NCBI GenBank assembly: GCA_947599905.1
Contig: CANQFR010000004.1
Coordinates: forward strand, 1-43,327
From: an uncultured Lachnospiraceae bacterium
GTDB lineage: Bacteria; Bacillota; Clostridia; Lachnospirales; Lachnospiraceae
Direction of reading: 5' to 3'
Length of the DNA: 43,327 nt
This document shows, one piece after another, positions 2,070 to 32,889 of this stretch. The stretch's first letter is position 1, and every line of letters begins with the position of its first letter. The position numbers were made by a program, and so were the translations under genes. A model generated the notes under the pieces. That model saw nothing but the letters and a program-made list of their open reading frames with translations, made no database searches and was not told where the DNA came from.

Positions 2070-2078
2070 GATATACTT
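2070..2078 (+). promoter_or_regulatory. Extended -10 promoter for the DUF3810 gene
   Basis: TG at 2070-2071 followed one base later by TATACT (2073-2078) forms an extended -10 element, 52 bases upstream of the ATG at 2130. No good -35 hexamer is seen 17 bases further upstream. Confidence 0.5.
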
Positions 2079-2129
2079 AAAACGTATTCCCGGAGAATAA
2101 CGCGGTGCACCGGACAGCTGGGGGATTTT

Positions 2130-5665: not shown

Positions 5666-5758
5666 GGAATACCGTATCGGCGCTTTTTGCGGGCGGCCGG
5701 CGTTATTTCAGCAGAAGCCGGACAGCAGAAGAAGCGCGGCAGACAGGAGATATCGGAA

Positions 5759-12744: not shown

Positions 12745-12825
12745 GCTGTTCGCGTGCGAATACGGATGTAAGACCGATCGGCGAAGATAGGAAACAAAGC
12801 AGGGCCGCAGGCCGCAAAAGGGGGC

Positions 12826-12852
12826 GGGCCGTCTGTGGGGGGCAGACGGCCC
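12826..12852 (+). other. Perfect 10-bp hairpin touching the ribosome binding site of the giant adhesin gene
   Basis: GGGCCGTCTG (12826-12835) and CAGACGGCCC (12843-12852) form a perfect, very GC-rich stem with a 7-base loop. The stem ends exactly one base before GGAAGGAGG (12853-12861), the ribosome binding site of the gene starting at 12868. No run of T follows, so it is not a standard terminator. It could set the relative expression of the two large surface genes. Confidence 0.6.
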
Positions 12853-12867
12853 GGAAGGAGGTATGAA

Positions 12868-15800: not shown

Positions 15801-18800
15801 GGGCGAATTCCGCATTGGGAAGAACGGCGGCTATATTCCTGTGACGGAAAACGGAAAGCCTGTATATGATACGTTGCGCCCGGTGATGCAGACCTGTTTT
15901 GTAACGCAGAGAATCGATTTCTATCCGTCCGGAGAATTTGAGATTATAGTCGATCCCTCGAAATGGAGCGATCCGGATGAGGTGGACGCAGACTATATCT
16001 GCGAAGAATTGAACGCCATGCTGAAGCAGATGGGATATACGCTGCTGGCGCATAACGCAGATGGGGCGGGCAGTGCGGACAAGGCGCCGTGGACGGTGGT
16101 CTCTCTGACAGGCACAAGCAATCAGGAGATGATAGAGAAGATTCTGGAATGGTTCGGCGCACATACCTTTTGGAGCAGCGTGCTGGTCGACGGGGTATGG
16201 GAAGAGGACGGACAGTGGAAAGCGAGAATACTGCATGATTATCCGGGCGGCAGCGCGGTTTATGAGGCGCGCACAAAGATATTGTATGTTAAGCTGCCGG
16301 TCAGAACCTCGGACGGGGAGAGGCATGTGTATGTGCCGTATCCGGAGGGTGCGTATGCGCTGAAAAACGGCTACGCGACCGTGAAGGCTGTCAGACAGAA
16401 GGAGGGTGAGATCCCGTTCGGCGCTGTCATGGATGACTGGCTTGAGAATGCGTATGAGCCGCTTTATGAGCGTTACGGCGAAAATGAACCGCGGCTGGAT
16501 GGAAACGGCAACCCGATTCCGGTCTACAAAGAGCAATATATTACCGGAAAAAGCCAGAATACGACCACTACCGATAAGCAGGTACCGCTTGCAGCCGTCT
16601 ATGATGCAGTCAGCGGCTGTTATCGGATTCATATCGAGAATACGGTGAACTGGGATGAAAACAAAGGACCGCAGATCATGACCATCCGTGCGAAAGCCCC
16701 GGCCACAGCCCATGCTGACAGCGGTCAGGAGCCGTTTTACAGCGATTATCTGGTTAACGTGAAGGGAGCGGGCGCCGGCGCATTTGCCTGTGTCCGCGGC
16801 GGGGAGCCGGAGGGCCTTGTGGAACTGGTATACCCCGGACAGGTTTCAGCGTCGCAGGACGGCGCGGGCGTACCGGGTAAAGGAACAAGGCTGGCGCCCG
16901 TCGGGGTGGGCGAAAGAATCATTTCGCAAAGCGTGAAGGTGATCAAAACCGTAAACCGAACCGACGGCGTTAGTGGCGGCGCAGTGCCCAATTTCCGCTT
17001 TAAGGCATATCTGAAGAGCAATCTTGAACGGCTCTACCGGGACGCCGAAGGAAATGTTGTGTGGCTTGACCGGCAGGGAAATGTGATCGATATCGGACAG
17101 GCGAACAAGGCGTATCCTGCGATCGTTCCGAATATTTATACAAAGGTCGAAAGACAGACTGCGCCGCTTTATAAACAGACTGCGGACGCGGTCATTGCCA
17201 ATGCATCTCTGTATTCGGAGGGCGAAACAGAACCGCTTGCCGGTTATACGGCTGTGCTGGAAACAGTGGAAAAAGAGGCTGTGGACGGAGACGGCGTAAG
17301 AACCGTCAGGGTACCGAATTATGAGAAATTCTTTGATGCCATAACGGTTGCCAATTACGACCTGTGGGATGACAGTTCCCCGGAACTGACGTCTCACAGA
17401 CCGTTGGGAAATACGGCGAACCGCAGCAATGACGCGGAGGAGAACGCGGAGTTTACGGATATGGTCAGGCAGTTTGCGATTGACTGGTATCTGGACGGTG
17501 AAGTGGCCGTGATGGAAAAAGAGACGGAAACGGCCTACGGCGACCGGTTCTATGATGAGGCGCTTCGGCGGGCGCTTGCGAAAGCGGATCTTTATCTGAA
17601 ACCATTTTTTAACTATGATCTGGATGAGATTTATGCGGTTTTGTGGGATTCTGACGCGGCCGGCGGAGCGGACGCGAATCCGGCGACGTTGAGTGCGGAT
17701 ACGGTCGCCGGAGATGCCTGTTTCGGGATTTCTGCAGCCCTTCCTTACGGTACTTATGTGGTGGTAGAGCAGCAGCCCCACTACGCTGGACTTAAGGATT
17801 TTGATAACCGGCATTACCGGATCGACAGCCCGAAGGAGGTGGTTGTGCCGTCGGTGTATTTGGCAACAGAAGAGGAAGGATCCGACGATGCGCTGAGCGC
17901 GGAATACATTTATCAAAGTAGTATGACGATGGAGGAGATGACCGGGCGCTACGGGATACGTTTCGGTTCAGAGATCCGTCAGGCAGCCGGCCGGGAAATA
18001 CCGTACGTGACAGACGCGCATAACGACAGCGGGGATTTCGAGATATACAAGTACGGCGTGGATATCGGTCTGCTCAGCAACGGCGTACACGAAACGGGGA
18101 AAGAGGGATATTTTGCGCTGACCCAGGATGCGTGGAAGCCATACCAGAATTATTATAATGACAGCGACGACCGCAGCGGACATGTGACGTATTATCTTTC
18201 GTGCGGGAAGTCGGGCCGAGAGGCTGTTGGACAGGTTTACCGCTACAGTTCGGTCGCCGAGAGCGCCGGAATCGCAAACGGAGTTGCATTTGCCGGAGGA
18301 ACGGCGACGGAGGAAAATCCGGCCGGAATCTTCTACCGGGACGGCGTGAAGACCATGAGCGGCGTAAAGACTGCTTACGAAGGACTGTACAGCCCGATGT
18401 TCGTTCCGGTAAGTCCCGGCGGCAGCGTGACGCCTGATGGGGGCAGCGGCGGGAATAGCGGAAGTTCTGCTCCGGGGGCGGAAAGCGCATTGAAAACGAA
18501 GATCGCCGGCGACGGTTCGTACGCCCGCGTGCGCTTCGTTAATACGCCCTATGAGGCGAAGCTGCGGATTGAAAAGATGGATTCTGAAACAGGGGAGAAT
18601 CTGCTTCACGATGATGCGGTTTTCAATATCTATCGGGCGGTGAGGGATGAGTCGCCGGACGGAGAGGGCAGGGTTCGCTTCTATGACGAGGATACTATGG
18701 TGTTTCGGAAAAGCAGGGAGTTTCTGGAAAGCATGGGGGCATCAGAGATTCGTCTGATGTCCGGCAGCTGGTATCAGGGCGTCATTCCTGCCGGAACGCC

Positions 18801-21800
18801 GGTCTGCGAGGAGACCGCGCGGATATACCAGACAGACGCGGAAGGCGTACGAATCGGCGAATTCCGTTCTTTTACAACGGTTAGGGACGGTGCTCTTGCG
18901 GCTGCGGACGATGGATTTGCGGGCGGCTTCGGGCAGCAGAATGCGGGTTGGCTTGAGACGCCGGAGCCGCTGGCGGCGGGCGTTTATGTGCTGGCGGAAG
19001 TGAAGGCGCCGGCCGGATATGTGAGGAGCCGTCCGATTGCGATCGAGGTTTACAGCGACAGGGTAACCTATTATCAGAGAGGAACAGAGGACAGCCGTGT
19101 AACGGCGACGGTTTATGCTTCGACAGACGTAGAGCGGGCTTCGGAGGAGGCGGCGCGGGTCTATGTAGAGAATACGCCGACCCGGCTGCTTGTGGAAAAG
19201 AGAAAGGAGGCATCTGCGGAAAGTTCCGAGGCGGAGAAGCGGACGATGACCGCACGAATCAGCGGACGCATTGACGGTAATCTGGCAGAGATCGGCGGCG
19301 ATTCGAATTACGAATATGCTTACCGCGACGGCGTATACATGGGTTATGCCTGGAGAAAAGGAACCCTGGAATATCTGAAGGCGCTGAAGGATGCCGGTAT
19401 GGATGTGGAGATCGTGTATCAGGGCAATTTGTTCGCGGGATACGGATATATTACGCAGGAACTGGCGACAGCGGATGATGTAAACGGTTATGTAACGGGG
19501 GCACTGATGACGCTGTATGAAGGGCTGGAATTGACGCCGTCGGGCGGCAGTCAGGATATGGCCTATCAGGGACTGGAAATCGTCCGCAGCGGCGCCGGCA
19601 ATGTGACGCGTATGTATGTTAAAGAAGGATATGCCGGGTTCCGGACGGAATTTACGCGAATTGATGAGCAGGACGGGGAGACCGCGTCGCCGGGCGGGGG
19701 CGCTTCATTCGGGGAAGCCGGAGACGAGAGTCCGAAAGATATATGGAGTGCCCGGAAAATCGACCGCGGCGACACGGATATTCTTTTCTATGATCTGGGC
19801 GGGCTGGATGTGTTCCGGACGGACTACGCTGCCGGGCGGATACTGCGGTACGGCTATGACCGCAGTCACAGGATAACGGAACTGCAGCAGCTGGAAGATG
19901 ATAAAGAGAATGTCGCCGCGACAGACGGCAGTCAGTCGATCTTTGCGTTTCGGAACGGCGTGCCGGTACTGGAATTCGCCGGGGGAGATTTTACCCAAAT
20001 AACCTATTCGGCGGCGAACAAGGTATTTGAAGGGAAATTCGCGCGTCCCGAACGGCAGCCGGACGGGACTGTCAGGATGAGCGGGGGCGTCGTGCTGTAC
20101 CATCTGGATTCAGACGGCAGCCGGGACAGTCTGGTCGATCCGTATACCGGGATGGCTTATACGCTGGCGGCCGGTGAGGCGGAAGAGGAATGCGGACCGG
20201 AGACGCCTGTGCGCGTGCTGGTATGGCCGGTTACGGTCGCGCGCGACGCGGAAGGACATCTGCTGGCGCAGGATAAGATTACGACATCGCGGATTGCTAC
20301 GCTGGGTACGGATAAAGATACGGAGTATCTGACTGGAACCTGGCAGTCTGAAAACAGCGGGCAGAGCCATCAGATGTTTTCGCTGACGGCGAACCGTTTC
20401 GGGCAGAATATGAATGGCGAGCCGGTTTTGACCGGAAATAACGGAGCCTTTGAAAAGTCGGTGTATCCGGTCTATGATTCGCACGGTATGGTTTTGTATT
20501 ATCGTTACAGCGGCGAGAGTTATGAGACGGAACTTCCGCTTTATGACCGAAGCGGGCGCAAGGTACGTGAAAAACAGTCCGATCTGCAGACGGAATATGA
20601 CGAAGCCTCGTATGTTATGCGGGAGGACCGCAAGGAAGACCAGGAGGCAGCCGGCACTGGCGGCGGCATATATCATCGTGCCGGGGAGAGTTATATTCTG
20701 GAGAATACCTGGCTTACAGGAGAGTCAGCGCCGGATGATCCGTTTGCGGACGAACTGACGGAAGGACAGGCGGATCTGCTGCGCCGCGTTCCTGTGGGAA
20801 TTTATATTATGGAGGAGCTGGCGGCGCCTGAAGGCTACGGGAAGGGGCTTCCCACCGGCGTGGTCGTGGAGGAGACGGCCGCGATACAGCGGACCGTGAT
20901 GACGGACAAGACGACAAAGCTTCTGGTCGGAAAGGCCGACGGGACGGAAAATAATACCTTCCGGGTGCTGGATATGCTGAAGACGGACGCCTCCGGCACG
21001 CCGCAAGTTCTGGGGACAGTCACGGAAGGCGCGGGAAGGTACAGCGGCACGCAGCTGTCCGGTGCGCGTCTGGCGCTCTACGAAGCGGAAAGGGTATACA
21101 CATCAGATCTGACGAACCATCCAGACGGAACATATTTGCGTAAAAAGGGTGGGGAACCGCTGACTTACCACTCCACCAACAGCAGACCGGGAGCGGAAGA
21201 GACGCTGCGCGCCGAGTGGACGAGCGGAGAGACGCCGCTCTGTCTGGAGGCCATTCCCGCAGGAGAATACCTGCTGGAGGAACTTGAGGCACCGCCGGGA
21301 ATGGTCAGTGCGCCTGCCCGTGAGGTTACGGTCGGCAGAATCGGAGAGATGCAAACGGTGATTTTGTATAACGATCATACAAAACTGGAGATTGAGAAAT
21401 ACACCGGCGACGGGGCCGGAGAAAATCTTGTAAGCGGTGCGCAGTTTACGCTGTATAAGGCGAAGACTGGCAGCGGTGGACAGGTTGTCTATGATGACAA
21501 CGGATGGCCCGCTTATGATCCTGAAAGTCCGGTAGATCAATTTACAAGCGATGACGGCGGGCGGTATACCGGATTCATTCGGGCATTTGAGGAACAGTAT
21601 GCGTGGTGGGGTACCGGACTGCGGGAAGTATCCTGGACATACGGCGGCCAGACGATTCATGCGCAGTATGCCAGCCATACGCAGATAGATGTATCGGAGG
21701 CCAGAATTCAGGAAGCGGGAGCATTGGCAGCGGATGGTCAGGAAGCGGGAACATCAGCGGCTGGAGACCAGGAAACGGGAATATCGGAGGCGGATGATCA

Positions 21801-24800
21801 GGAAAGCGGCATATCGGTGTCAGGTCTGAGAAGCGGCCTGCTGGCAGCCATCGGACGAGAAAGTACCGGGAACCAGTTTCCAACAACGGCGGAAATGGTA
21901 CTTCTCACTGACGACGGCGCGGAGATTCGCGTCAATATCAGCGAGCAGGGCAAAAACCTGCTGGGGCAGAACAGGGTTTATACGTACCGCTTTGATTATC
22001 ATGCGCTGCCGGACGTGAACAGCCGGGCGTCTTCTTATCTGACGGAAAGCGGGATGCGCCGTCTGGATTATCTGCCGGTGGGGGCGGATTATGTGCTGGT
22101 GGAGACAGCGCCGCCGGACGGATTTGCTGCGTCCGTACCGGTATTGATCCGCGTGCGTGATCTTGCGGATGTGCAGCGCTATCGGATCAGGAACGAGGAG
22201 GGCGCGGTCACGATTTCGAAAACTTACAGTGACAGCGGAAAAGAACTGCCGGGTACAAAGCTGGCGCTCTATCGGGCTGCAGCGGACGGCGGTCTGATCC
22301 GTGAGGACGCGTATCTGGCGGCAGTCTGGACCAGCGGCCGGGATGGCAGATATACGGAGGAGGACAGAATAAACGGTCTGATTCCGAAAGGATATGAGGT
22401 CGGGGATTTGCGTCCCCATACGCTTACACGGCTGCCGGAAGGAGATTACTGGTTGGTGGAACTTGCGAGTCCGGCGTATTATACGACATTTGAACCGGTG
22501 AAAATCGCGTATCATGTGGACGATCCGGTTCGCATTGTCAGGGTGTCCGATCTGCCTGCGAAGGGGCGGGTGACCGTAAGAAAGACAGATTCAGAAGGAA
22601 ATGATCTGCAGGGTGCCGTGTTTGAGCTGTCCGCGTATTGCCAGCCCGATCTGCAGAATCCTGTTTTTACGAAACGGTTTGGCGATATTGGCGGAATTGC
22701 GGCACTGGAGGAGCTGCCGGTTGGAGAAATTCAGGCAGACGGAAGCATCATTGCCTACTGCTACCGGCTGCGGGAAGTTATTCCGCCGGATGGCTACGCG
22801 GTGAATCCCCGATCCTGGACATTTGAGTTTTTGCCGGACAAAAAAGGCGTATCCTATGTCTGGGGAGAAGCAGCGGAATACAGCCAGACAGTTGTTGATC
22901 AGAAGACACGAGTCACGATACGGAAGAAGGATTTTGGGGAACTTTATGTCAACGGTGCGGAACTGACAGTGTATCCTGTGACCGGCGCGGACGATAATGG
23001 CAGATATCTCTATGATGAAGACAGTCCGGTCGCGAGTTGGGTTACGTCGGAGACGGAGCCGGATCATATGCTGGAAGGACTGATCGCAGGCAGAAGCTAT
23101 CTGTTGGCGGAGACTCAGGTACCGCAGGGATATGAGCAGATGAAACCGGTGGTATTTTCGTTATCGGCGGATGGTCGGCGGATTGCTTCGCTTGGAGGAC
23201 ATATGGCGGTAATAACGGTTCACGATCTGTATACTGCGACGCTTCGGGGGCGGTATGTCCTGCGCGGTGAAATGACCGTAACCGATTCGAAAGGACGGAA
23301 AACGGCTTCCTGGACGTCATCCGGCAGCGGACGGGTACTGACGGAAAAGGATGGAATCCGTGACGGGGAAATCTATACGCTGACAGAAACGACATTTTAC
23401 AGCGATGGTTCTGCGCAGACCGTAAGCCGGCGGACCGGGAGGGTATCGCTCTCCGATGGAGGATGGCGCGTGGAAGACCGGTGGCCGGAGCGCGTATACC
23501 TGCGGCTGCGCGAGCTGATAGAGGAAGATGCTGAGGCCCAACCGGTGATTGCCGCGTATGCGCCGTCGGAAGAACGGCCGGAGCTGGCAGTCGGGGACGC
23601 TTCTTTCGGGAAGGAGCTGTTTTCGAACCGGACAGGGTATGTGCTGGAGGAGACAACTTATTACAGCGACGGCAGTTCTGCGGTGAGCGGCCGGCTGGCG
23701 TTTGAGATCGGCGACGATGGTTCTGTCACGGCGTTGGCCGGATATGACAGGAAGCGGCAGGTGACGGTCAGTAAGACCGATATCACAGGGCAGAAAGAGG
23801 TACCGGGAGCCAGGCTGCAGATTCTGGATGCGGAAGGAAATATTGTCGAAGAATGGGTATCTGTGGAAACGCCGCATCCGGTGGCGGCTGTGCTGACGCC
23901 GGGGGAGAGCTATACGCTTCGCGAGATCCTCTCGCCGGACGGGTACGCATATGCGGCCGATATCACATTTACTGTCTCGGAAGAAGGCATCGAGGAGCAG
24001 GTCGTGATGGCGGATACGCAGACGCGGGTCTTGGTAACGAAGACGGATATTACTGGAGAGAAGGAACTTTCGGGTGCGAAGATGCAGATTTTCGAACTGG
24101 AGGAAGAGCCGGCGGTTTTGCCGTCTGCCGGAGAGACGTCCCAGCCGTCAGACGCAGCGGCCGCAGGAGGAGCGTCGGGAAAGCAGCCCGATAAGACGGT
24201 ACGGAAAGGGAGGTTAACGGAAGAATGGATCTCTGCCGGAGAACCGCATGAGATTGTCGGAAAACTGACAGCCGGGAAGTCGTATATTCTGCATGAAGAA
24301 ACGGCGCCGGCCGGGTATGCCTGCGCAGAGGATATTATTTTCAGGGTGTCGCGGAACGGCAGCATCGACCGTGTCACGATGAGAGACGAGGCGCTGCCGC
24401 ACAGGACGCGCAAACCGCGGGAACCGGAGCCGAAAAAACCCGGGACGGTCGAAGCAGAGTATCAGGTATTTCTGATTGATTCTGCCGGTGTGCCGCTGAG
24501 CGCGCTCATATACGGACCTGTGCCGGAGACGGGAGACAGCATATGGAGTGCTGCGGCCGCGGCGCTGTTTCTTATGATCTGTTCGGCGGTTATGTGCGGT
24601 GTGTTTTGGAATTTGACAGGAGGGGACAGTACAGTGTATCAGGAATGGAAACAGATGCAGAAGAAAAGACGAAGCGCTTCCCGGCGGCACGGGCGGTTTA
24701 TGGTATGGCTTGTGTTTGGCCTGGCTGCCGCGCTAGCAGGGAGAATATCAGTCAGAGCTTCAGAGATGACTGTCGCGGAAGAAAGCGTTGTTTCTGCAAC

Positions 24801-25689
24801 CGATACCGAGATTACCGTGCGTTACGATACGTATGCGGTGAGTGTGGAGGAAGCCGTGCAGATGCCGCTTCCGCCGGACGCCTGTCTCTGGCAGGGGGAG
24901 GAATACCGTCTCAAAGCGTTTCAGACGGTGTCGGTACCTTTGCCGGAGCTGACACGTTACGCGCGGGAATCGGTATTATATGAAGGCGTGGAACAGGCGG
25001 CGACCGTGCCGGAGAGCATAGACGCGAACCTGTGGGATGAGGATTCCGGTCGCAGCGCAGTTGTTATGCTTCCGTTGGAAAGTACGCAGGAGGCGAACGG
25101 ACGCTGGGCGGACGGTTTCATATTTCCGGTTACGGTCTGGGGGTACGAAAACGGAAGTTTTATTCTGGGCGGCGAAACTGTGCAGGTGAAGGAGGAGCAT
25201 CCGTTTGCGGGATATGAATCGTCGCTTCTGGAACTGATCGGCGTGGATCCGGCGTATTATCAGATCGATACGGTAGAATGGAGCGGAGCGCCGCAGACGG
25301 GGGAGAATGGCCTGATATACCGTCAGGCCACAGCCTCCGGCCGAAAATATGTAATGGATATCACAGCGGTCTACGGCGGGCAGGCGGTAATTCCCGAGCA
25401 GCCGGGCATGGCGTATGAGGCTGTATATGAGAAGGCGGCGCCGGAAAGCGAGCCTGAAACGGAGGAAGAAACGGAAGGCATAGCTTCGCCGTCCGCGGCG
25501 CAGATACAAATAACGCCGCCGCCCGTTCCTGCCGCTTCCGCGCTGCCGGAAGAGTCTGCCGGGCTGCCCGGTTGGATTCGGACAGTCATGAAGATCACGG
25601 CAGTGGTATTCGGACTTGGTTTTTTGCTGTTTCCCTTTTTCCTTATTTTTCTGCTTCGCAGGAAGAAACGAAAACAGGCGAAAGTCTGA
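12868..25689 (+). CDS. Giant thioester/SpaA-repeat adhesin with internal sortase signal, fused to a second membrane protein
   Basis: The frame codes for 4273 residues. The start at 12868 follows GGAAGGAGG by 6 bases. A signal peptide (about 1-40) precedes a thioester domain: Cys79 in FCISPG and Gln140 in AAAQAAVWAV match the TQXA-type pair that forms covalent bonds with host or matrix amines. About 13 CnaB/SpaA-type domains follow, recognisable by a strand-plus-Lys then (L)xGAxFxLY pattern, at about residues 342, 755, 1348, 1897, 2105, 2682, 2837, 3111, 3232, 3346, 3450, 3629 and 3717. VPETG (3885-3889) plus a membrane helix looks like a sortase sorting signal. Instead of ending, the frame goes on through a basic stretch, a signal-peptide-like helix ending VRA/SE, a roughly 300-residue extracellular part and a final membrane helix with RRKKRKQ. 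No sortase gene is in the window. It may act in binding host tissue, mucus or diet particles, which is inference. Confidence 0.85.
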   Translation: MKIESIRVKRRRILSGFLAFVCLCVSVFPFYAVMKTTTIVSRAKTFSGKNIWSGGSETLFGHSRNYLYRWKDNYQLTFCISPGKHMGVMVTSNGIRTSVDDAEIPYIRSTEDYQLLADICYWVDHHGSVSADNATYAAAQAAVWAVIGDGWESADAMEALVDKHVPGTLARWQQLKAYIERSEACRVPIPDWVQTSRLAAQESPLPMKQDNGVWKLELDISSLPQLAACAWDFGENAAGWSAQVLNGKLIFTYNGGQPPAAVASTPIPDSLADWAHNTETLNIYLPVSNASTTQIMISAAPVTPKVYIGLTSGGSFDTETESEQELELVIYEHRETFTSHYQIGLAKYCAETGQTLEGAQFRVLEAFDGSEITAPLDREGMATRPAVWDGFRICGEAVTDADGHFDHCDTKKYTYVKTYCDGHPKPTYVSAEEMFPEADGSDADYEEVEQAVDAQNEKLDAQWQELVDLCASYHEGSHFHHVEPGMAKEEMLADRDAAYEGFIGLTYEYTFEEIRARYGYTRHGQHKDDIKIPVYAVSSLEAGGRVVDMGSRDITVNEDVGYIASYADSSVTGENREEVEEARDIRTEFGQSGQEELLSASIHAEMPEIMKGMRPVVKIEEEDAWETEADEIGETEEEEAAEPVQPETPEGMQGSATDDGEICEATPSDADEKGITGQPDSTERTVSIMSNADRQKTLRYSFAALPEEMDEEKEDMFSAGALPAPVPDDLQPITPYSTEGVSVIYIPVSDHRTEGEIHINKRDILLRDGEHDGYDSYADTQGDATLEGAVYGLYAAEDILHPDGKTGVVYRKGALTAIASTDKNGDASFMAYTEEGELARLTDALSGAGYSAGSIPGYRTLRSWIGRPLIAGRYLVREIARSEGYELTIDPAAMEGVQTVGRADVTSAMYHPIDMHDGYWLEFDVTYENTAEGFDVLVSGFPAGSSFSRSYMESKTETEDVVVGVEMVPTGEYEIAEPGEFRIGKNGGYIPVTENGKPVYDTLRPVMQTCFVTQRIDFYPSGEFEIIVDPSKWSDPDEVDADYICEELNAMLKQMGYTLLAHNADGAGSADKAPWTVVSLTGTSNQEMIEKILEWFGAHTFWSSVLVDGVWEEDGQWKARILHDYPGGSAVYEARTKILYVKLPVRTSDGERHVYVPYPEGAYALKNGYATVKAVRQKEGEIPFGAVMDDWLENAYEPLYERYGENEPRLDGNGNPIPVYKEQYITGKSQNTTTTDKQVPLAAVYDAVSGCYRIHIENTVNWDENKGPQIMTIRAKAPATAHADSGQEPFYSDYLVNVKGAGAGAFACVRGGEPEGLVELVYPGQVSASQDGAGVPGKGTRLAPVGVGERIISQSVKVIKTVNRTDGVSGGAVPNFRFKAYLKSNLERLYRDAEGNVVWLDRQGNVIDIGQANKAYPAIVPNIYTKVERQTAPLYKQTADAVIANASLYSEGETEPLAGYTAVLETVEKEAVDGDGVRTVRVPNYEKFFDAITVANYDLWDDSSPELTSHRPLGNTANRSNDAEENAEFTDMVRQFAIDWYLDGEVAVMEKETETAYGDRFYDEALRRALAKADLYLKPFFNYDLDEIYAVLWDSDAAGGADANPATLSADTVAGDACFGISAALPYGTYVVVEQQPHYAGLKDFDNRHYRIDSPKEVVVPSVYLATEEEGSDDALSAEYIYQSSMTMEEMTGRYGIRFGSEIRQAAGREIPYVTDAHNDSGDFEIYKYGVDIGLLSNGVHETGKEGYFALTQDAWKPYQNYYNDSDDRSGHVTYYLSCGKSGREAVGQVYRYSSVAESAGIANGVAFAGGTATEENPAGIFYRDGVKTMSGVKTAYEGLYSPMFVPVSPGGSVTPDGGSGGNSGSSAPGAESALKTKIAGDGSYARVRFVNTPYEAKLRIEKMDSETGENLLHDDAVFNIYRAVRDESPDGEGRVRFYDEDTMVFRKSREFLESMGASEIRLMSGSWYQGVIPAGTPVCEETARIYQTDAEGVRIGEFRSFTTVRDGALAAADDGFAGGFGQQNAGWLETPEPLAAGVYVLAEVKAPAGYVRSRPIAIEVYSDRVTYYQRGTEDSRVTATVYASTDVERASEEAARVYVENTPTRLLVEKRKEASAESSEAEKRTMTARISGRIDGNLAEIGGDSNYEYAYRDGVYMGYAWRKGTLEYLKALKDAGMDVEIVYQGNLFAGYGYITQELATADDVNGYVTGALMTLYEGLELTPSGGSQDMAYQGLEIVRSGAGNVTRMYVKEGYAGFRTEFTRIDEQDGETASPGGGASFGEAGDESPKDIWSARKIDRGDTDILFYDLGGLDVFRTDYAAGRILRYGYDRSHRITELQQLEDDKENVAATDGSQSIFAFRNGVPVLEFAGGDFTQITYSAANKVFEGKFARPERQPDGTVRMSGGVVLYHLDSDGSRDSLVDPYTGMAYTLAAGEAEEECGPETPVRVLVWPVTVARDAEGHLLAQDKITTSRIATLGTDKDTEYLTGTWQSENSGQSHQMFSLTANRFGQNMNGEPVLTGNNGAFEKSVYPVYDSHGMVLYYRYSGESYETELPLYDRSGRKVREKQSDLQTEYDEASYVMREDRKEDQEAAGTGGGIYHRAGESYILENTWLTGESAPDDPFADELTEGQADLLRRVPVGIYIMEELAAPEGYGKGLPTGVVVEETAAIQRTVMTDKTTKLLVGKADGTENNTFRVLDMLKTDASGTPQVLGTVTEGAGRYSGTQLSGARLALYEAERVYTSDLTNHPDGTYLRKKGGEPLTYHSTNSRPGAEETLRAEWTSGETPLCLEAIPAGEYLLEELEAPPGMVSAPAREVTVGRIGEMQTVILYNDHTKLEIEKYTGDGAGENLVSGAQFTLYKAKTGSGGQVVYDDNGWPAYDPESPVDQFTSDDGGRYTGFIRAFEEQYAWWGTGLREVSWTYGGQTIHAQYASHTQIDVSEARIQEAGALAADGQEAGTSAAGDQETGISEADDQESGISVSGLRSGLLAAIGRESTGNQFPTTAEMVLLTDDGAEIRVNISEQGKNLLGQNRVYTYRFDYHALPDVNSRASSYLTESGMRRLDYLPVGADYVLVETAPPDGFAASVPVLIRVRDLADVQRYRIRNEEGAVTISKTYSDSGKELPGTKLALYRAAADGGLIREDAYLAAVWTSGRDGRYTEEDRINGLIPKGYEVGDLRPHTLTRLPEGDYWLVELASPAYYTTFEPVKIAYHVDDPVRIVRVSDLPAKGRVTVRKTDSEGNDLQGAVFELSAYCQPDLQNPVFTKRFGDIGGIAALEELPVGEIQADGSIIAYCYRLREVIPPDGYAVNPRSWTFEFLPDKKGVSYVWGEAAEYSQTVVDQKTRVTIRKKDFGELYVNGAELTVYPVTGADDNGRYLYDEDSPVASWVTSETEPDHMLEGLIAGRSYLLAETQVPQGYEQMKPVVFSLSADGRRIASLGGHMAVITVHDLYTATLRGRYVLRGEMTVTDSKGRKTASWTSSGSGRVLTEKDGIRDGEIYTLTETTFYSDGSAQTVSRRTGRVSLSDGGWRVEDRWPERVYLRLRELIEEDAEAQPVIAAYAPSEERPELAVGDASFGKELFSNRTGYVLEETTYYSDGSSAVSGRLAFEIGDDGSVTALAGYDRKRQVTVSKTDITGQKEVPGARLQILDAEGNIVEEWVSVETPHPVAAVLTPGESYTLREILSPDGYAYAADITFTVSEEGIEEQVVMADTQTRVLVTKTDITGEKELSGAKMQIFELEEEPAVLPSAGETSQPSDAAAAGGASGKQPDKTVRKGRLTEEWISAGEPHEIVGKLTAGKSYILHEETAPAGYACAEDIIFRVSRNGSIDRVTMRDEALPHRTRKPREPEPKKPGTVEAEYQVFLIDSAGVPLSALIYGPVPETGDSIWSAAAAALFLMICSAVMCGVFWNLTGGDSTVYQEWKQMQKKRRSASRRHGRFMVWLVFGLAAALAGRISVRASEMTVAEESVVSATDTEITVRYDTYAVSVEEAVQMPLPPDACLWQGEEYRLKAFQTVSVPLPELTRYARESVLYEGVEQAATVPESIDANLWDEDSGRSAVVMLPLESTQEANGRWADGFIFPVTVWGYENGSFILGGETVQVKEEHPFAGYESSLLELIGVDPAYYQIDTVEWSGAPQTGENGLIYRQATASGRKYVMDITAVYGGQAVIPEQPGMAYEAVYEKAAPESEPETEEETEGIASPSAAQIQITPPPVPAASALPEESAGLPGWIRTVMKITAVVFGLGFLLFPFFLIFLLRRKKRKQAKV
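21709..21828 (+). repeat. Four in-frame 30-bp repeats inside the giant adhesin
   Basis: Four imperfect 30-bp units at 21709, 21739, 21769 and 21799 code for 10-residue repeats (QEAGALAADG, QEAGTSAAGD, QETGISEADD, QESGISVSGL). They interrupt the SpaA-type domain that starts near residue 2837 and probably form a flexible loop or spacer. Confidence 0.85.
24520..24636 (+). other. Internal sorting signal and internal ribosome binding site with GTG in the giant gene
   Basis: Bases 24520-24534 code for VPETG, followed by a hydrophobic segment ending CGVFW, as in LPXTG-type anchors. AGGAGGGG (24618-24625) then stands 8 bases before an in-frame GTG (24634). From that GTG the rest of the frame would be a 351-residue protein with a good signal peptide (KKRRSASRRHGR, then VWLVFGLAAALAG, then VRA/SE) and a C-terminal membrane anchor. 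In the next frame a TGA (24614-24616) sits just before the AGGAGGGG. The layout looks like two ancestral genes joined by a small insertion or deletion, or one frame giving two products. Confidence 0.65.
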
Positions 25690-25792: not shown

Positions 25793-27295
25793 ATGAGAGA
25801 GTGCGGGATATTGCTGCCCATCGCCAGTTTGCCGGGCGAGTATGGGGTTGGCGCGTTTTCAAAAGAAGCTTATCAGTTTATTGACGACCTGGCTGCCGCG
25901 GGGCAGAACTACTGGCAGATTCTGCCGCTGGGACCGACCGGTTACGGGGATTCGCCTTATCAGGCGTTCTCTGCTTTTGCGGGGAATCCGTATTTCATTG
26001 ATCTGGAGCAGCTGATCGCGGACGGACTGCTGACGAAGCAGGAGTGTGACGAGGCGTATTTCGGTGATGATGAGAGATATATTAATTATGAGGCTATATA
26101 CAATAACCGCTTCCGGGTGCTGAAAAAGGCTTATGAGCGCTGGAAAGCGCGTACCCTCGCGGAAGGGAAGGATCTCGAGAAGGAACTGACTGCGGATCTT
26201 TATGAGGAGACGCTGGACTACTGTTTCTATGCGGCGGTGAAGCGTTCCTTTGGGGAGAAAAGCTGGAGCGAGTGGGATGAGGATATCAAACTGCGCAGAC
26301 CCGAGGCGCTGGCCCGGTACCGGAAAGAACTTGCAGACGAGATCTGCTTCTATGAGTTTCAGCAGATGATGTTTGTCAGGCAGTGGCATTCACTCAAGGA
26401 GTATGCGCATAGCCGCGGGATCCGCATCATCGGTGATATTCCGATCTATGTGGCGTTCGACAGCGCTGACAGCTGGAGTCATCCGGAGCTGTTCCAGTTC
26501 GATGAGAGATGCCGGCCGGAGGCTGTCGCTGGTGTGCCGCCGGATGCGTTTTCCGCCACGGGGCAGCTGTGGGGGAATCCGCTGTACCGGTGGAGTTATC
26601 ATAAGAAGACCGGTTATGCCTGGTGGCTGCGCCGGATGAAGTATTGCTTTGATCTGTATGATGTGGTGCGTGTGGATCATTTCCGGGGATTTGAGAAATA
26701 CTACGCTGTTCCGGCAGGCGATACCACAGCGGAAAACGGCAAGTGGGAGAATGGCCCCGGCTATGCGCTGTTCAAAAAGATGAAGGACGAGCTGGGAGAC
26801 CTGAATATCATCGCGGAGGATCTGGGATATCTGACGCCGGAAGTTCTTGAGATGGTCGAGAAGACCGGATTCCCCGGTATGAAGGTGCTGCAGTTTGCCT
26901 TTGACTCCCGGGAGAGGAGCAATTATCTGCCCTGTTTTTATACGCCAAACAGCGTGGTATACACCGGTACGCACGACAATGACACGGTGAGAAGCTGGTA
27001 CGAGACGATCCCCCAGCGGGACCGTGATTTTGCCGCGCGCTATATGGGCGTGACCGATCCGGACTGGGATGATATCCACTGGGATTTTATCCGCGCGGCG
27101 CTGGCCAGCGTATCGAAACTGGCGGTGATTCCGCTGCAGGATTATCTGGGGCTTGGCTGGGAAGCACGGATCAATACGCCGTCCACACTGGGCGGCAACT
27201 GGGAGTGGCGTATGAAGAGGGGAGAATTTACCCGTCCGGTCATAGACAGATGTCGTGAGATGAACCGGCTCTACGGAAGAGGAATCGGACTGTAA
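25793..27295 (+). CDS. malQ: 4-alpha-glucanotransferase (amylomaltase)
   Basis: MalQ (GH77) transfers alpha-1,4-glucan segments between maltodextrins and releases glucose, in the cytoplasm. The 500-residue length is typical. The N-terminus (GILLPIASLPGEYGVG) and LPLGPTGYGDSPYQ are family signatures. The catalytic residues are present: nucleophile Asp295 in RVDHFRGFEKYY, acid/base Glu342 in IIAEDLG, and Asp395 in GTHDNDT. NTPSTLGGNWEWR near the end is also characteristic. The start follows AGAGAGG by 7 bases. It lies between the adhesin locus and a LacI/debranching/GH31 block and probably shares a pathway with that block. Confidence 0.96.
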   Translation: MRECGILLPIASLPGEYGVGAFSKEAYQFIDDLAAAGQNYWQILPLGPTGYGDSPYQAFSAFAGNPYFIDLEQLIADGLLTKQECDEAYFGDDERYINYEAIYNNRFRVLKKAYERWKARTLAEGKDLEKELTADLYEETLDYCFYAAVKRSFGEKSWSEWDEDIKLRRPEALARYRKELADEICFYEFQQMMFVRQWHSLKEYAHSRGIRIIGDIPIYVAFDSADSWSHPELFQFDERCRPEAVAGVPPDAFSATGQLWGNPLYRWSYHKKTGYAWWLRRMKYCFDLYDVVRVDHFRGFEKYYAVPAGDTTAENGKWENGPGYALFKKMKDELGDLNIIAEDLGYLTPEVLEMVEKTGFPGMKVLQFAFDSRERSNYLPCFYTPNSVVYTGTHDNDTVRSWYETIPQRDRDFAARYMGVTDPDWDDIHWDFIRAALASVSKLAVIPLQDYLGLGWEARINTPSTLGGNWEWRMKRGEFTRPVIDRCREMNRLYGRGIGL

Positions 27296-27321
27296 GCGGC
27301 CGCCGATACCGGCCGGCTGCT

Positions 27322-28008
27322 CTACTCGGCCGGATGCGTCGCCGCGTTGTCTGCTTCCTCAATCACTTCGGTCAGGGAGAATGACGGTTGGTATTCGTTG
27401 CCGGACATATCCCTGATCGTCACGGTGAGACCGGTGGTGTCAATTGCGAATACGGCAGTTCCGGCATTCCGGTCGATCGACAGCGGGGCGATTATGCGGC
27501 CGTCGCCGGTGACCGCGCTGAGGCTGTCATAGTCAATTCCCGACTGGGTATCGGAAAGCCACAGTGTCAGATGATCTTCGGTCAGTGTATAGGAGGTGAC
27601 ATCCGGCAGTTCGTTGTCCAGGACGTCGATTACCGCATAACCGGTAATGGCCATATGGTTGAAGTTCTCCATATGGATTTCCAGTACGCCGTTATGAGTG
27701 ATTGTGGAACGGTAACTTTTCTTCCTGCCGATCTGCGTCAGATCGAGCGGTTCGCCGTCAAGCGTGATGGTCACGCTGCGCAGGGGCATGAAGGATGTGA
27801 TCGTGAACGTGAGATCAGTGGTCCGGTAATCATTCGTATCGTCAATGTTCAGTTCATAGCTTGGCTTTGTCGTTACCAGAAAGAAGATAATCAGGTTAAC
27901 GACGACAAAAGGCAGAATATAAAATAATAAAAGCCGAACCCATTCAAACCGTAAGATGCTGTTACGTCTTCTGGCCGGGGTGCGGCGATACACGCGCTGC
28001 TGTTCCAT
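27322..28008 (-). CDS. Single-span membrane protein of unknown function
   Basis: This 228-residue protein has a basic cytoplasmic N-terminus (RVYRRTPARRRN), one membrane helix at about 26-45 (LLLFYILPFVVVNLIIFFLV), and a beta-rich extracellular domain without cysteines. Within that domain, DLTFTITSFMPLRSVTITLDGEPL and a second half ending VTIRDMSGNEYQPSF resemble tandem Ig-like or bacterial-surface beta sandwiches. I do not recognise a named family. The start at 28008 follows GGAGGG by 5 bases, and a good promoter lies upstream. It is convergent with malQ, with 26 bases between the stop codons. Confidence 0.75.
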   Translation of the reverse strand: MEQQRVYRRTPARRRNSILRFEWVRLLLFYILPFVVVNLIIFFLVTTKPSYELNIDDTNDYRTTDLTFTITSFMPLRSVTITLDGEPLDLTQIGRKKSYRSTITHNGVLEIHMENFNHMAITGYAVIDVLDNELPDVTSYTLTEDHLTLWLSDTQSGIDYDSLSAVTGDGRIIAPLSIDRNAGTAVFAIDTTGLTVTIRDMSGNEYQPSFSLTEVIEEADNAATHPAE

Positions 28009-28103
28009 GAAATCCCTCCGGTGGTCTGCACTGCATATGAAATCCGGTCTCTGCGCGCTCTATCGGCTCCGGCCGGAGAGCATTGCAGAACAACCGTATT
28101 CCT

Positions 28104-28132
28104 AGCATACCAGAAAAACAGAAATCTTACAA
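28104..28132 (-). promoter_or_regulatory. Promoter of the minus-strand membrane protein gene
   Basis: On the minus strand, TTGTAA (28132-28127) and TATGCT (28109-28104) are 17 bases apart, about 96 bases upstream of the start codon at 28008. Confidence 0.6.
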
Positions 28133-28177
28133 GTTCTACTTTAAAAAATATCTTTGATATGGAAAGAGAGGACAGCA

Positions 28178-28723
28178 ATGATTCAGAAAGCCGCGGCTTA
28201 TGCTGCGAAGGCCCATGAAGGCGCTCTGCGCAAAGGAAGCAATATGCCCTACATCGTTCATCCGAAGACAGTGGCCGCGATTGTGGCCGCCATGGGCGGT
28301 GACCCCGAAGAAATTGCCGCCGCATATCTGCACGATGTCATTGAGGACGCAGGCGTGACTTATGAAGAGCTGAAGGAAGAATTCGGACAACGCACAGCGG
28401 ATCTCGTCCGGGCGGAGACCGAGGACAAATCAAAGACCTGGACAGAACGCAAGCAGGCGACGATTGACCGGCTGCACGCGGCTTCCCGGGAGGAGAAGCG
28501 GATTACTTTTGCGGATAAATTAAGCAATCTGCGAAGTACGGCGGAGGACTACCTGGCTATAGGGGATGAGATCTGGCAGAAGTTCCGCCAGAAGGAAAAA
28601 TCGATGCAGGAGTGGTATTACCGGAGCGTATTCGAAAGCTTCGGCGATTTTAAGGAATATCCGTTTTATCGCGAGTATGAACTGCTCCTGAAGATGGTGT
28701 TCGGTGAGAAGGCTCATCCCTGA
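28178..28723 (+). CDS. Stand-alone HD-domain hydrolase of the SpoT/MESH1 type
   Basis: This 181-residue protein has all the metal and catalytic positions of the (p)ppGpp hydrolase domain: RKGSNMPYIVHP (His28), LHDVIED (His52, Asp53, Glu56, Asp57) and FADKLSN (Asp113, Asn117). It lacks synthetase, TGS and ACT domains, so it would be a small alarmone hydrolase rather than a Rel enzyme. Removal of the 3'-diphosphate from ppGpp, or from an analogous nucleotide, is the likely role; which nucleotide cannot be told. The start at 28178 follows AGAGAGGA by 5 bases; an upstream ATG at 28154 is less well placed. Its last 10 bases overlap the end of the convergent LacI gene. Confidence 0.85.
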   Translation: MIQKAAAYAAKAHEGALRKGSNMPYIVHPKTVAAIVAAMGGDPEEIAAAYLHDVIEDAGVTYEELKEEFGQRTADLVRAETEDKSKTWTERKQATIDRLHAASREEKRITFADKLSNLRSTAEDYLAIGDEIWQKFRQKEKSMQEWYYRSVFESFGDFKEYPFYREYELLLKMVFGEKAHP

Positions 28724-29748
28724 ACAGGAAGTTTCCGTAAAGGGGCGGATTTACGGCGGCGTACGGGGCCGGTGCTGTCGCGGGTGATCAGTTCCGCACG
28801 CAGCAGGAGCGTTCCGATGCAGGTTCCGCCGATCAGACTGTGCAGCGCATAGAAGCCGCAGCGGCCGAGCGCCTCCTGATTCTGGCGGATCGTGGTCAGC
28901 GAGGGATTCGTATACGCAGCGAACGGTGCGTCGTCAAAACCGATGATGCTCACATCCTTCGGCACCCGGTATCCCAGATCCATACAGCTGGCGATTACCG
29001 ACTGGGCCAGAAGATCCGTGCCGCATACGATAGCGGTGACATGACTGTCCAGAAGGCGGGGCAGGTATTTATGCGTGCATTCGGAAATGAAATATGAGCA
29101 GCCGATCCGGTCCGGGTCCACGCGCAATTCGTGGGCGTCCATTGCTTCGAGAAACGCGTCATGACGTTTACGGGAGACGAAGGAGTCCATATCGCCGCCC
29201 AGATAGCCGATCTGCGTATGCCCCAGTTTGCTCAGATATTCGATCGCCATCATATATGCCTCGGAATTGTCGATGCCGATATAGCTGACGCGCGGATTCT
29301 CCCGGATGTAGTTGTCATAGAGGACAGCCGGTGTCCGGGCGCTCTGAAGTTCTTTCATCCACGGACTTAAAAGCGACATACCGATAATGAACGCGCCCTT
29401 ATATTCACGGGAGAGCATGAAGGCGTCATAAGAGATTTCCTTCTGCTGCTCTTCTGTGATGGAAACGATGTCCGTTTCCCAGCCGGCAGGAACGGCCATT
29501 TTCTTGAATCCCATGACAATGTCGTAGCCGAAATCCCCCGGATCTTCGTGGTTGATGTTCTCCACCAGAACGCAGAGGCGATTGGCGGTGTCCCGCCGCG
29601 CGCGGTTCCGTTTATAGCCGATTTCCACGGCGGTTTCGAGCACTTTCTTTCGTAAAGTTTCGCTCACGTCGTCTGCACCGTTAAGCGCTTTGGAAACAGT
29701 ACCTTTGGAAATTCCCAGTTTGTCCGCGATATCATTGATGGTCGGCAT
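28714..29748 (-). CDS. LacI-family transcription regulator
   Basis: The N-terminal helix-turn-helix (MPTINDIADKLGISKGTVSK) followed by the hinge ALNGADDVSETLRKKV is typical. The remaining 270 residues form a periplasmic-binding-protein-like sensor domain (GAFIIGMS, YIGIDNSEAYMMA, IVCGTDLLAQSVI, VSIIGFDDAPFAAYTNPSLTTIRQN). The start at 29748 follows GAGGG by 7 bases; MNEGNN upstream (29766) is less likely. It is transcribed away from the debranching enzyme/HAD/GH31 operon and probably controls it, with a maltodextrin or related sugar as effector. That link is inferred from position. Confidence 0.92.
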   Translation of the reverse strand: MPTINDIADKLGISKGTVSKALNGADDVSETLRKKVLETAVEIGYKRNRARRDTANRLCVLVENINHEDPGDFGYDIVMGFKKMAVPAGWETDIVSITEEQQKEISYDAFMLSREYKGAFIIGMSLLSPWMKELQSARTPAVLYDNYIRENPRVSYIGIDNSEAYMMAIEYLSKLGHTQIGYLGGDMDSFVSRKRHDAFLEAMDAHELRVDPDRIGCSYFISECTHKYLPRLLDSHVTAIVCGTDLLAQSVIASCMDLGYRVPKDVSIIGFDDAPFAAYTNPSLTTIRQNQEALGRCGFYALHSLIGGTCIGTLLLRAELITRDSTGPVRRRKSAPLRKLPVQG

Positions 29749-29768
29749 ATTATTACCCTCATTCATTA

Positions 29769-29780
29769 TGAAACATTTCC
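29769..29780. promoter_or_regulatory. Candidate LacI-family operator upstream of the regulator gene
   Basis: TGAAACATTTCC is close to the TGAAACGTTTCA type of palindrome bound by many LacI-family proteins. It lies between the -10 element and the start of the LacI-family gene, where it could serve in autoregulation. One side is imperfect, and no equally good copy was found beside the debranching-enzyme promoter. Confidence 0.35.
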
Positions 29781-29798
29781 GAAATCCTTCTCAATTAA

Positions 29799-29827
29799 AT
29801 TATACAGAATATCCCCGGATAAAGCAA
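29799..29827 (-). promoter_or_regulatory. Promoter of the LacI-family regulator gene
   Basis: On the minus strand, TTGCTT (29827-29822) and a perfect TATAAT (29804-29799) are 17 bases apart, 51 bases upstream of the start codon. Confidence 0.75.
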
Positions 29828-29844
29828 GGATTTATCAAAAAAGC

Positions 29845-29874
29845 TTGACAATCGGCCATGAATCGCGGAATAAT
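29845..29874 (+). promoter_or_regulatory. Promoter of the debranching enzyme operon
   Basis: A consensus TTGACA (29845-29850) is followed after 18 bases by AATAAT (29869-29874). The start codon of the debranching enzyme is 77 bases downstream. It is back-to-back with the LacI-family gene promoter; the two -35 elements are 17 bases apart. Confidence 0.65.
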
Positions 29875-29951
29875 GAGGATGACGGAAACTAAGGAAAACT
29901 TTTGAACCGGAAACAGAGCGGGATCGGAGTGGAAACGCGGGAGGATGCGGA

Positions 29952-32177
29952 ATGAGATTCGTGTATGGCGGACAGGACTGGGCAACGCGGGAGCGGGGAC
30001 AGGAAAATGTGTACCTGCTGACGAACGGACTTGGCGGCTTTTCCTGCGCTTCCATGATCAATTCAAATACGAGGAATGACCAGGCGTTTCTGATGGCCAG
30101 TCTGAGGGCGCCGAATCTGCGCTATAATATGGTGAACCGTCTGGAGGAAGTGCTTGAGTCAGGGGATCGCGTGCATCTGTCGTCGCAGGAATTTACAGAC
30201 GCGGCGCATAATGAGAACGGGTATCTTTACCTGAACAGCTTTGTGTACAAAGATTATCCGGAATGGACATTCCAGGCGGACGGCGTGGAAGTCGTAAAGC
30301 GTGTTGTTATGGTTCAGGGGAAGAATCTGGTCGCCGTGCAGTATCGGATCGACAACCGCACGGACGCGGAGGTCCGCCTTACGGTAACCCCGCATCTGCA
30401 GTTTGTACCGAAGGGGCAGCCACTTACGGGGAAACCGAAATTCACGATACGGCAGTGCAGCGCTGTGGAAGAGGCAAGGATGCCGGAGCGCTGCGGCGAT
30501 GAGACAAGGATGCCGGAGCGCTGCGGTGGTGGGAAAAGGATGCTGGCGCGCTGCTGCGGTGAGGAAACCGGGGCGCGGGTACGCAGCGCTGCGGCAGCCG
30601 CCGGGAAAGATGCGCCGGCTGAAGTGAAACAGCAGTACGGGGTCTATGAGATCGCCTCAGGGGAACTGCGGCTGTATATACGGACAAACGGCGAGACGGA
30701 AATCTATGAGCCGCGGTTCTGCGGCGGCGCGTATTACGCTTACGATGCCTGCGACGGGCGTGAAAGCGAGGGAAGAACCTGTATTCTCTGCGATATTTCG
30801 CGCGCGGTTCCGCCCCACGCGGACGCGGTGCTGGAGATCGTCTGCGGCGCGGATCGGGAGATCCCCGTTTCGGCGGAGCCGTTGTTTGACGAGGCGTCGG
30901 AATACCGGCGGGGTCTTCGGAAAGCGGCGGAAGGCGGTCTGCATTCCGCGGCGGCGCTGCAGCTGGCCGTGAGCGCAAACCAGTTCATTTCCCGCAGGGA
31001 GTCTACCGGAGGACAGACGATCCTGGCCGGATACCCGTTTTTCGAGGACTGGGGACGTGACACGATGATCGCGCTGGAAGGTTGCTGTATGAGTACCGGG
31101 CAGTACGATACGGCAAAAAGCATCCTGCGGACGTTTGCGGCTTACTGCAGGAAAGGCCTGATGCCGAACCTGTTCCCGGAAGGCGGCTCTGAGCCGCGGT
31201 ACAACACGGCCGACGCGGCGCTTTTATTTATCAGCAGTGTGTATACCTATGTGCTGCGGACCGGAGACGATGACTTCGTCCGGGAAATGTGGCCGGTCAT
31301 GGCGGGGATCATCGAAGCGTACCGGGACGGGACGGATTACGGTATCTGCATGGACGGAGACGGCCTGATCCGGGCGGGACTGGAGTACGACCAGGTGACC
31401 TGGATGGATGTGCGCATCGATAACCATCTGCCTACGCCGCGGCACGGGAAACCGGTGGAGATCAACGCTTACTGGTATAACGCGCTGAAGGTGATGGAGA
31501 AGCTGGGAAGCGGGCCGTATTTTAAGGGGCCGGAAACGCCTGTTTCCGGCGACTGGCCGCCGGCGGATCATCCGGCCGCTTTCGGAAGCCGGTGCGGGCG
31601 TCTGGCAGAACTGACAAAGAATAGTTTTCTCGGCAAATTCTGGATGGAGGACAAAGGGTGGCTTAAGGACGTACTGTCCGGCACGAAGGCGGATGAACAG
31701 TTCCGCTGCAATCAGATCTGGGCGGTCTCGATGCCATTTTCCATGATAGACAGGCGGCGGGCGCGGAGGATCGTGGATGCGGTCTATGAGAAGCTTTACA
31801 CGCCCTATGGCCTGCGGACGCTTGCCATGGACGATCCGGAATTTCACGGAACTTACGGCGGGGAGCTGCGCGCGCGGGATCTGGCGTATCATCAGGGAAC
31901 TGTGTGGGTATTCCCGCTGGGCGCGTATTATCTGGCGTATCTGAGAAGCCGGGATCATACGCCGGACGCGGTGCGGACAGTCCGGCGGCAGCTGGAGGCC
32001 CTGGAGAGCGCTATGCGGGAGGGCTGTATCGGACAGCTGCCGGAGATCTACGACGGCGGGCGGCCCGCGTTTTCCAGGGGATGCTTCGCGCAGGCGTGGA
32101 GCGTGGGCGAGCTTTTGCGGGTATATGAGGCCGTGGAGAGCGGAGAAACTGTGCGGGAGCACGGCGGATATGAATAA
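29952..32177 (+). CDS. Glycogen debranching enzyme (amylo-alpha-1,6-glucosidase type)
   Basis: The 741-residue protein has the bacterial GDE layout: an N-terminal beta domain (LTNGLGGFSCASMINSNTRN) and a C-terminal (alpha/alpha)6 barrel. The barrel carries the motifs GYPFFEDWGRDTMIALEG, LMPNLFPEGG, YNTADAALLF, LEYDQVTWMDV and EINAYWYNALKVME. This class removes alpha-1,6-linked glucose at glycogen branch points. Residues about 175-205 carry a Cys/Arg-rich insert of three 10-residue repeats (RMPERCG type) not expected in the family. The start follows GGGAGG by 8 bases. Its stop overlaps the start of the HAD gene by 8 bases, so the two are translationally linked, and a GH31 glucosidase follows. 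Confidence 0.93.
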   Translation: MRFVYGGQDWATRERGQENVYLLTNGLGGFSCASMINSNTRNDQAFLMASLRAPNLRYNMVNRLEEVLESGDRVHLSSQEFTDAAHNENGYLYLNSFVYKDYPEWTFQADGVEVVKRVVMVQGKNLVAVQYRIDNRTDAEVRLTVTPHLQFVPKGQPLTGKPKFTIRQCSAVEEARMPERCGDETRMPERCGGGKRMLARCCGEETGARVRSAAAAAGKDAPAEVKQQYGVYEIASGELRLYIRTNGETEIYEPRFCGGAYYAYDACDGRESEGRTCILCDISRAVPPHADAVLEIVCGADREIPVSAEPLFDEASEYRRGLRKAAEGGLHSAAALQLAVSANQFISRRESTGGQTILAGYPFFEDWGRDTMIALEGCCMSTGQYDTAKSILRTFAAYCRKGLMPNLFPEGGSEPRYNTADAALLFISSVYTYVLRTGDDDFVREMWPVMAGIIEAYRDGTDYGICMDGDGLIRAGLEYDQVTWMDVRIDNHLPTPRHGKPVEINAYWYNALKVMEKLGSGPYFKGPETPVSGDWPPADHPAAFGSRCGRLAELTKNSFLGKFWMEDKGWLKDVLSGTKADEQFRCNQIWAVSMPFSMIDRRRARRIVDAVYEKLYTPYGLRTLAMDDPEFHGTYGGELRARDLAYHQGTVWVFPLGAYYLAYLRSRDHTPDAVRTVRRQLEALESAMREGCIGQLPEIYDGGRPAFSRGCFAQAWSVGELLRVYEAVESGETVREHGGYE
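30476..30565 (+). repeat. Three in-frame 30-bp repeats in the debranching enzyme gene
   Basis: Units at 30476, 30506 and 30536 are about 30 bp each. The first two share AAGGATGCCGGAGCGCTGCG exactly; the third has diverged. They code for RMPERCGDET, RMPERCGGGK and RMLARCCGEE-like peptides in a loop of the N-terminal domain. Confidence 0.85.
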
Positions 32178-32865: not shown

Positions 32866-32889
32866 GATCATGATAAATGGAGGAAAATT

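Follow-up and report, generated by a model that had tools for sequence, protein, structure and literature searches.

Giant Lachnospiraceae frames with an internal sorting signal: a probable polyprotein of a SpaA-repeat adhesin and a membrane protein

Sortase substrates normally end at a basic tail. Their sorting signals are regarded as C-terminal, a position that surface-protein predictors generally take for granted. The closest described relatives of the protein analyzed here are the sortase-anchored SpaA/CnaB-repeat proteins, which have an N-terminal signal peptide, SpaA repeats, a P-x-T-G-D motif, a hydrophobic helix, and basic residues. The present locus has all of these; however, its sorting signal is internal and is followed in the same chain by a second signal peptide and another membrane protein. 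The fbcH gene of Bradyrhizobium japonicum reportedly encodes (in work ascribed to Thony-Meyer in 1989) a cytochrome b/c1 precursor, a bacterial polyprotein that is cleaved at a signal peptide within the chain. It resembles the present locus in its single chain, its internal signal peptide, and the two membrane products expected from one gene, but it belongs to a respiratory complex, has no sortase signal, and involves unrelated proteins. In viral polyproteins, host signal peptidase cuts at internal signal sequences, for example at HCV core-E1 (PMC5402940). There, as in our locus, a membrane helix is the signal sequence and a signal peptidase site lies between two products, although that system is viral, is placed in the eukaryotic ER, and has no wall anchoring. 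Finally, other Lachnospiraceae carry overlapping pairs of an adhesin gene and a gene for the second protein, hereafter the tail (14 loci), with the same halves, order, and signals; unlike the fusion, each pair is spread over two reading frames, separated by a stop codon and, in most cases, a strong ribosome-binding site.

Among the literature matches listed by our full-text searches, none described a sortase/signal-peptidase polyprotein in its title or the start of its abstract. Precedents exist for the sorting signal, for gene pairs that overlap, and, in the B. japonicum precursor, for a cut at an internal signal peptide; judged from those titles and abstract openings, their combination appears to be new.

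A giant frame that continues past its sorting signal

The window, by which we mean the whole analyzed stretch of 43,327 nucleotides, lies on one contig (C4) of a 276-contig draft genome of an uncultured Lachnospiraceae bacterium. Its forward strand holds a giant fused frame, an adhesin half plus a second membrane protein, at 12868-25689. The frame encodes 4273 residues from the ATG at 12868, is stop-free from 12772 to 25689, and is terminated by the TGA at 25687-25689. PF17802 (SpaA) matches it in four stretches (E = 1.5e-70). The adhesin half opens with an N-terminal signal peptide (12868-12996) that has a basic n-region and a hydrophobic core, and whose probable end, between VSRA and K, was estimated by eye. 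Within 12868-13400, the motifs FCI and AAQAAVW resemble those of thioester adhesin domains; the N-terminal part of the adhesin gave no Pfam match to such a domain.

The earlier note had described a frame of this length that does not stop after its VPETG motif and membrane segment but continues into a basic stretch, a second signal peptide ending VRA/SE, an extracellular domain, and a C-terminal membrane anchor, and all of this is present. Specifically, the internal sorting motif VPETG-D occupies 24520-24537, and a sortase would be expected to cleave it between T and G (after 24531). It is followed by a first hydrophobic segment, TM1 (24562-24606), which is part of the sorting signal, and by a predicted cytoplasmic loop with a net charge of +6 (24607-24696), in which the tail of the sorting signal and the n-region of the second signal peptide are combined. 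TM2 (24697-24741) forms the h-region of the internal signal peptide and leads to a predicted signal peptidase I site, VRA/SE (24751-24765), with the cut after 24759. The ectodomain of the second protein, with a Pro/Glu-rich linker, spans 24760-25599, and a C-terminal anchor, TM3 (25600-25656), precedes a basic tail (25657-25686). Since 383 in-frame codons follow VPETGD, the sorting signal is not at the very C-terminus, although the P-x-T-G type motif, the hydrophobic helix, and the basic residues of a sortase substrate are all in place. By the positive-inside rule, the chain is predicted to run out, in, out, in. It looks like a sortase substrate joined to a type I membrane protein, with the basic tail of the one serving as the n-region of the other.

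The loop also contains a Shine-Dalgarno-like AGGAGGGG (24618-24625), which stands, as described earlier, eight bases 5' of an in-frame GTG (24634-24636), a candidate internal start for the second protein; its duplex energy with the anti-Shine-Dalgarno sequence is -10.8. A TGA in the +1 frame at 24614-24616 had been taken for a former stop. The triplet is there in the window, but the sister locus L003 has CGAACA at that place and an other-frame TGA a few bases on.

Fused, split, and stand-alone forms

We searched the tail sequence in whole genomes, read the frames at each match, and assigned the states fused, split, or stand-alone by this reading. Within the genus, the tail is matched in 23 of 26 genomes and not matched in the other three; 21 genomes hold at least one in-frame fusion, and two (G001 and G002) hold split genes only. 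The genus fusion frames measure 3823-4760 residues, except for one of 1200 (G020), apparently truncated at the end of its contig. Of 397 genomes sampled from the family, 36 match, and 34 of these lie outside the genus. The loci of 32 of these 34 were examined, and they include a fusion in 10 genomes, an adjacent split pair in 11, a stand-alone tail gene in 14, and a merged form in one, with some genomes holding two kinds. Further afield, an order sample of 295 genomes gave seven tail matches, all within the family, and a class sample of 391 genomes gave two weak matches outside it. The locus counts, here and below, leave out weak matches in the family sample (G150, G306) and in the order and class samples (G338, G681, G857, G911), as well as two stand-alone matches of the order sample (G600, G661). 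Two single-protein scans of viral contigs found no tail relative, and phage records gave no tail match.

Of the 66 tail loci classed altogether, 35 are fused, 14 are adjacent split pairs, 16 are stand-alone (an uncertain assignment for L069, at a contig end, and for L071, overlapped by an upstream frame with a membrane segment), and one is merged without a hairpin; the fused class includes L042 on the strength of its junction, its frame seeming cut short and having no clear C-terminal membrane segment. An adhesin is fused to, merged with, or beside the tail in 50 of the 66. The remaining 16 have no recognized adhesin alongside, and therefore the tail does not always depend on one. One fusion, of 3852 residues, lies in a single-contig genome (G095). 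Relatives retain the topology signals despite much sequence divergence. As read in these genomes, the fused arrangement is more than chance, since it recurs across the genus as one open frame. The earlier note had named, among the results that would speak against its observation, homologues that consistently show two separate genes; the opposite is found in the genus, given its 21 genomes with fusions.

A cultured isolate carries the arrangement as well. WP_235622276.1 (3925 residues, "SpaA isopeptide-forming pilin-related protein") is annotated on plasmids of Enterocloster bolteae ATCC BAA-613 and FDAARGOS_1231, and its translation in the ATCC BAA-613 record contains the motif AKTGD, the hairpin, the ectodomain, and the anchor. 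On plasmid NZ_CP022465.2, the fused gene (L096, 2732-16073) stands in a conjugation-type operon with an FtsK/SpoIIIE-domain protein, TcpD, TcpE, and others, and the third gene downstream of it encodes a class B sortase; the fusion product is possibly a mating-pair surface protein. A third E. bolteae plasmid also matches, at the start of its record, where no gene is annotated.

In the 14 split loci, the adhesin ends behind its sorting signal, with the tail gene next in line. The best start codon for the tail gene lies 1-23 nt before the adhesin stop codon in 13 of them and 153 nt downstream in the other (L076). A sorting-type motif is present in all 14 adhesins, three of which have no P at position 2 (PSKTGD, NVKTGD, GVKTGD). 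The halves of the single frame thus occur as separate genes in relatives, and because the second start so often precedes the adhesin stop by 1-23 nt, an older indel between overlapping genes is a plausible origin of the fusion.

On the order of events, a quick tree of the 66 tails needs at least eight changes of the fused state, of which the starred branches force only two, many deep branches being weak. In a tree of the genus, the split pair (G001/G002; loci L007/L008) forms one clade with support 95/94 inside the fused ones, and forcing the 21 fused genus rows into one clade is rejected (p-AU 0.02, for a test group chosen after the first tree was seen). A single split in a fused ancestor would explain this most simply, repeated fusion being the alternative. 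Either way, the two states appear exchangeable in evolution, as expected of a polyprotein that gives two mature products.

Junction conservation and competing explanations

In the sorting motif of the 35 fusions, P occupies position 2 in 31 loci, T position 4 in 27, G position 5 in 34, and D position 6 in 32; the automatic parse missed the motif in several loci, for which it was named by hand. T is absent in eight, seven of which (with M, V, or L) belong to one subclade, the eighth being VPSAGD. Junctions of that subclade (L018-L024) read, for example, IPKMGD, LPRVGD, and LPGLGD, with P, G, and D retained; either its sortase has changed taste or sortase cleavage has been lost. A further locus, L011, has SPYTHD. 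Sortase may therefore not act on all of the fusions.

The loop is net positive in all 35 fusions (the value for L042, +8, coming from a separate parse), and the stretch after the last core is net positive in 34, L042 having no clear last core. For signal peptidase, we used the pattern small-x-small, placed 4-12 residues after a hydrophobic core, with [AVT]xA as the strict form. Sites were at first chosen by hand, and TM2 was placed with their help; the test was then repeated without hand picks. In that repeat, two hydrophobic cores were found in 30 of 35 fusions and in none of 14 split tails. A site follows the last core before the tail in 35 of 35 fusions (strict in 33), and the preceding core in only 11 of 30 (strict in 4). 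In the first test, one followed the C-terminal core in 11 fusions out of 35 (strict in 4). The background rate is 0.058 per position; the N-terminal signals of the split tails have one in 14 of 14 (strict in 7). The features of a signal peptidase I substrate, namely a positive n-region, an h-region, and small residues at -3/-1, are present in every fusion. In five pairs tested, dN/dS at the junction is 0.14-0.69, with the flanks more constrained in four of the five; these ratios are rough, several dS values being high. As far as such ratios indicate, the junction is constrained as a protein in these pairs.

We consider it probable that the frame encodes a natural polyprotein, with predicted cuts by signal peptidase I, and by sortase where the motif is intact, that would separate the adhesin from a type I membrane protein. 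The N-terminal signal would export the SpaA-repeat adhesin, and the internal VPETG-D with TM1 would halt transfer, leaving the short basic loop in the cytoplasm. TM2 would then act as a second, cleavable signal peptide and export the second ectodomain, which TM3 would anchor. Signal peptidase I would cleave after VRA to free the type I membrane protein, while a sortase (class B-like by inspection) would cleave between T and G of VPETG and attach the adhesin to the wall; the hairpin of TM1, loop, and TM2 would be a by-product to be discarded. Adhesin and second protein would be made 1:1. We infer both cuts, the use of the internal signal by sortase, and the role of the second protein as the adhesin's membrane partner. 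Of the three readings offered by the earlier note, a recent indel, a polyprotein, and one gene with two products, the polyprotein is the best supported, by the signal peptidase site and the positive loop in 35 of 35 fusions and by the mixed fused and split genus tree, its cuts being predicted.

The same junction could also remain whole, as a three-pass protein in which the hairpin ties the adhesin to the second ectodomain and the adhesin is held by the membrane, not the wall. Loss of the motif T in eight of 35 fusions fits such a protein, as does L081 (3874-6345), an 824-residue protein in which a SpaA-type region is joined straight to the tail ectodomain, with no hairpin and one C-terminal anchor, as though the halves had been permanently united; because this locus merges the halves without a hairpin, an uncut version can exist. 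For the fusions, however, we think this unlikely: an uncut transmembrane helix does not need the signal-peptidase-type site found in all 35, and the split pair sits within the fused clade. There is likewise only a slim chance that signal peptidase cuts alone and the adhesin keeps the hairpin as its anchor, using no sortase, at least where the motif is degenerate. The degenerate motifs of the one subclade do coexist with a signal peptidase site, but the window has VPETGD, the residues at positions 4, 5, and 6 are mostly kept across the fusions, and a class B sortase gene lies near the E. bolteae fusion.

Another route would make the second protein mainly by initiation at GTG 24634, with the read-through form as a minor product. 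Loop starts in the window (-10.8) and in the sister locus L003 (-10.7, with a GTG at the same place) rank near the top, a value of -10.7 being reached by about 2% of null windows; the strongest start is in L023 (-11.7). The split relatives have strong sites too, the best duplex energy reaching -8 in 13 of 14 loci. Among the fused loci, where the stretch scanned for starts is shorter per locus than in the split ones, candidate loop starts reach -8 in only seven of 35, a modest excess over the 10.6% of random in-frame windows, and six fusions (L011, L015, L019, L047, L066, L067) have no candidate loop start with any pairing. One gene giving two products, as suggested earlier, is thus possible in the window and in L003, going by these duplex energies, and unlikely as a general route to the second protein; as the main source of that protein, internal initiation seems to us very improbable. 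A merger of two genes through an assembly or sequencing error, or through a very recent indel, has a next to negligible probability. The draft state of the window's genome and the split versions in G001 and G002 would suit it, but in-frame fusions in 21 genus genomes, in the single-contig genome, and in the annotated E. bolteae plasmid records lead us to reject it. The recent one-base indel proposed in the earlier note fails with it, the sister L003 having no TGA at the proposed former stop.

Processing enzymes, the tail family, and significance

The polyprotein reading calls on two enzymes, and the window's own genome has matches over the cut-off for both. It contains two sortase matches (PF04203), so a sortase is present; the two were called class B by inspection, with no class-specific model. 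It also contains two signal peptidase I matches, one of them in the window (1295-2383, reverse strand; PF10502 at 1319-1873, E = 2.5e-39), a candidate processing enzyme whose gene precedes the fused one by about 10.5 kb on the same contig. Directly upstream of the adhesin, an apparently secreted protein of 1200 residues (9142-12744, forward strand) is a possible operon partner, with sub-cut-off Pfam matches to choline-binding repeats and to the M26 peptidase N-terminal region. The adhesin is flanked (3302-7294 and 25793-35064) by glycogen/starch and other genes: GlgB-like and MscS-like, then 4-alpha-glucanotransferase, a LacI-type regulator, a debranching enzyme, and GH31. At L031, the gene downstream of the fusion begins like the same 4-alpha-glucanotransferase.

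Neither Pfam nor NCBIfam yields a match above the curated cut-off for the ectodomain of the window tail. Across 28 tail relatives, weak matches are scattered, the best being NF053819 (EF0750-type) at 24.3 bits against a cut-off of 47. This model matches four of the 28 members, always below its cut-off (best E = 3.4e-5), and the three matches that we viewed singly cover about 44-57 residues near the tail start; we took them as non-specific. Other weak Pfam and NCBIfam matches occur in single members. Among solved structures, the best chain for the tail ectodomain reaches only E = 0.14, and an AlphaFold2 model built from two sequences has a mean pLDDT of 36.1. The fusions define an unnamed membrane-protein family that is often tied to giant adhesins.

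Beyond this locus, we lean somewhat towards a widespread class of polyproteins in which the basic tail of a sorting signal is also the n-region of a cleavable signal peptide inside the chain. A wall adhesin and its membrane partner would then come from one ribosome, at the same site and one after the other, at a fixed 1:1 ratio. The adhesin would be tethered to a dedicated, hitherto unrecognized membrane partner when it is handed to sortase, and lineages would switch between this arrangement and translationally coupled overlapping genes. Because E. bolteae ATCC BAA-613 is a cultured isolate, two questions become testable: whether sortase acts on an internal sorting signal, and whether signal peptidase matures a Gram-positive cellular polyprotein. 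As a property of the genomes, the frame with an internal sorting signal, as predicted for such a polyprotein, is conserved and recurrent in Lachnospiraceae, and the fused frames are therefore a conserved, recurrent exception, within a large gut family, to the rule that sorting signals are C-terminal.
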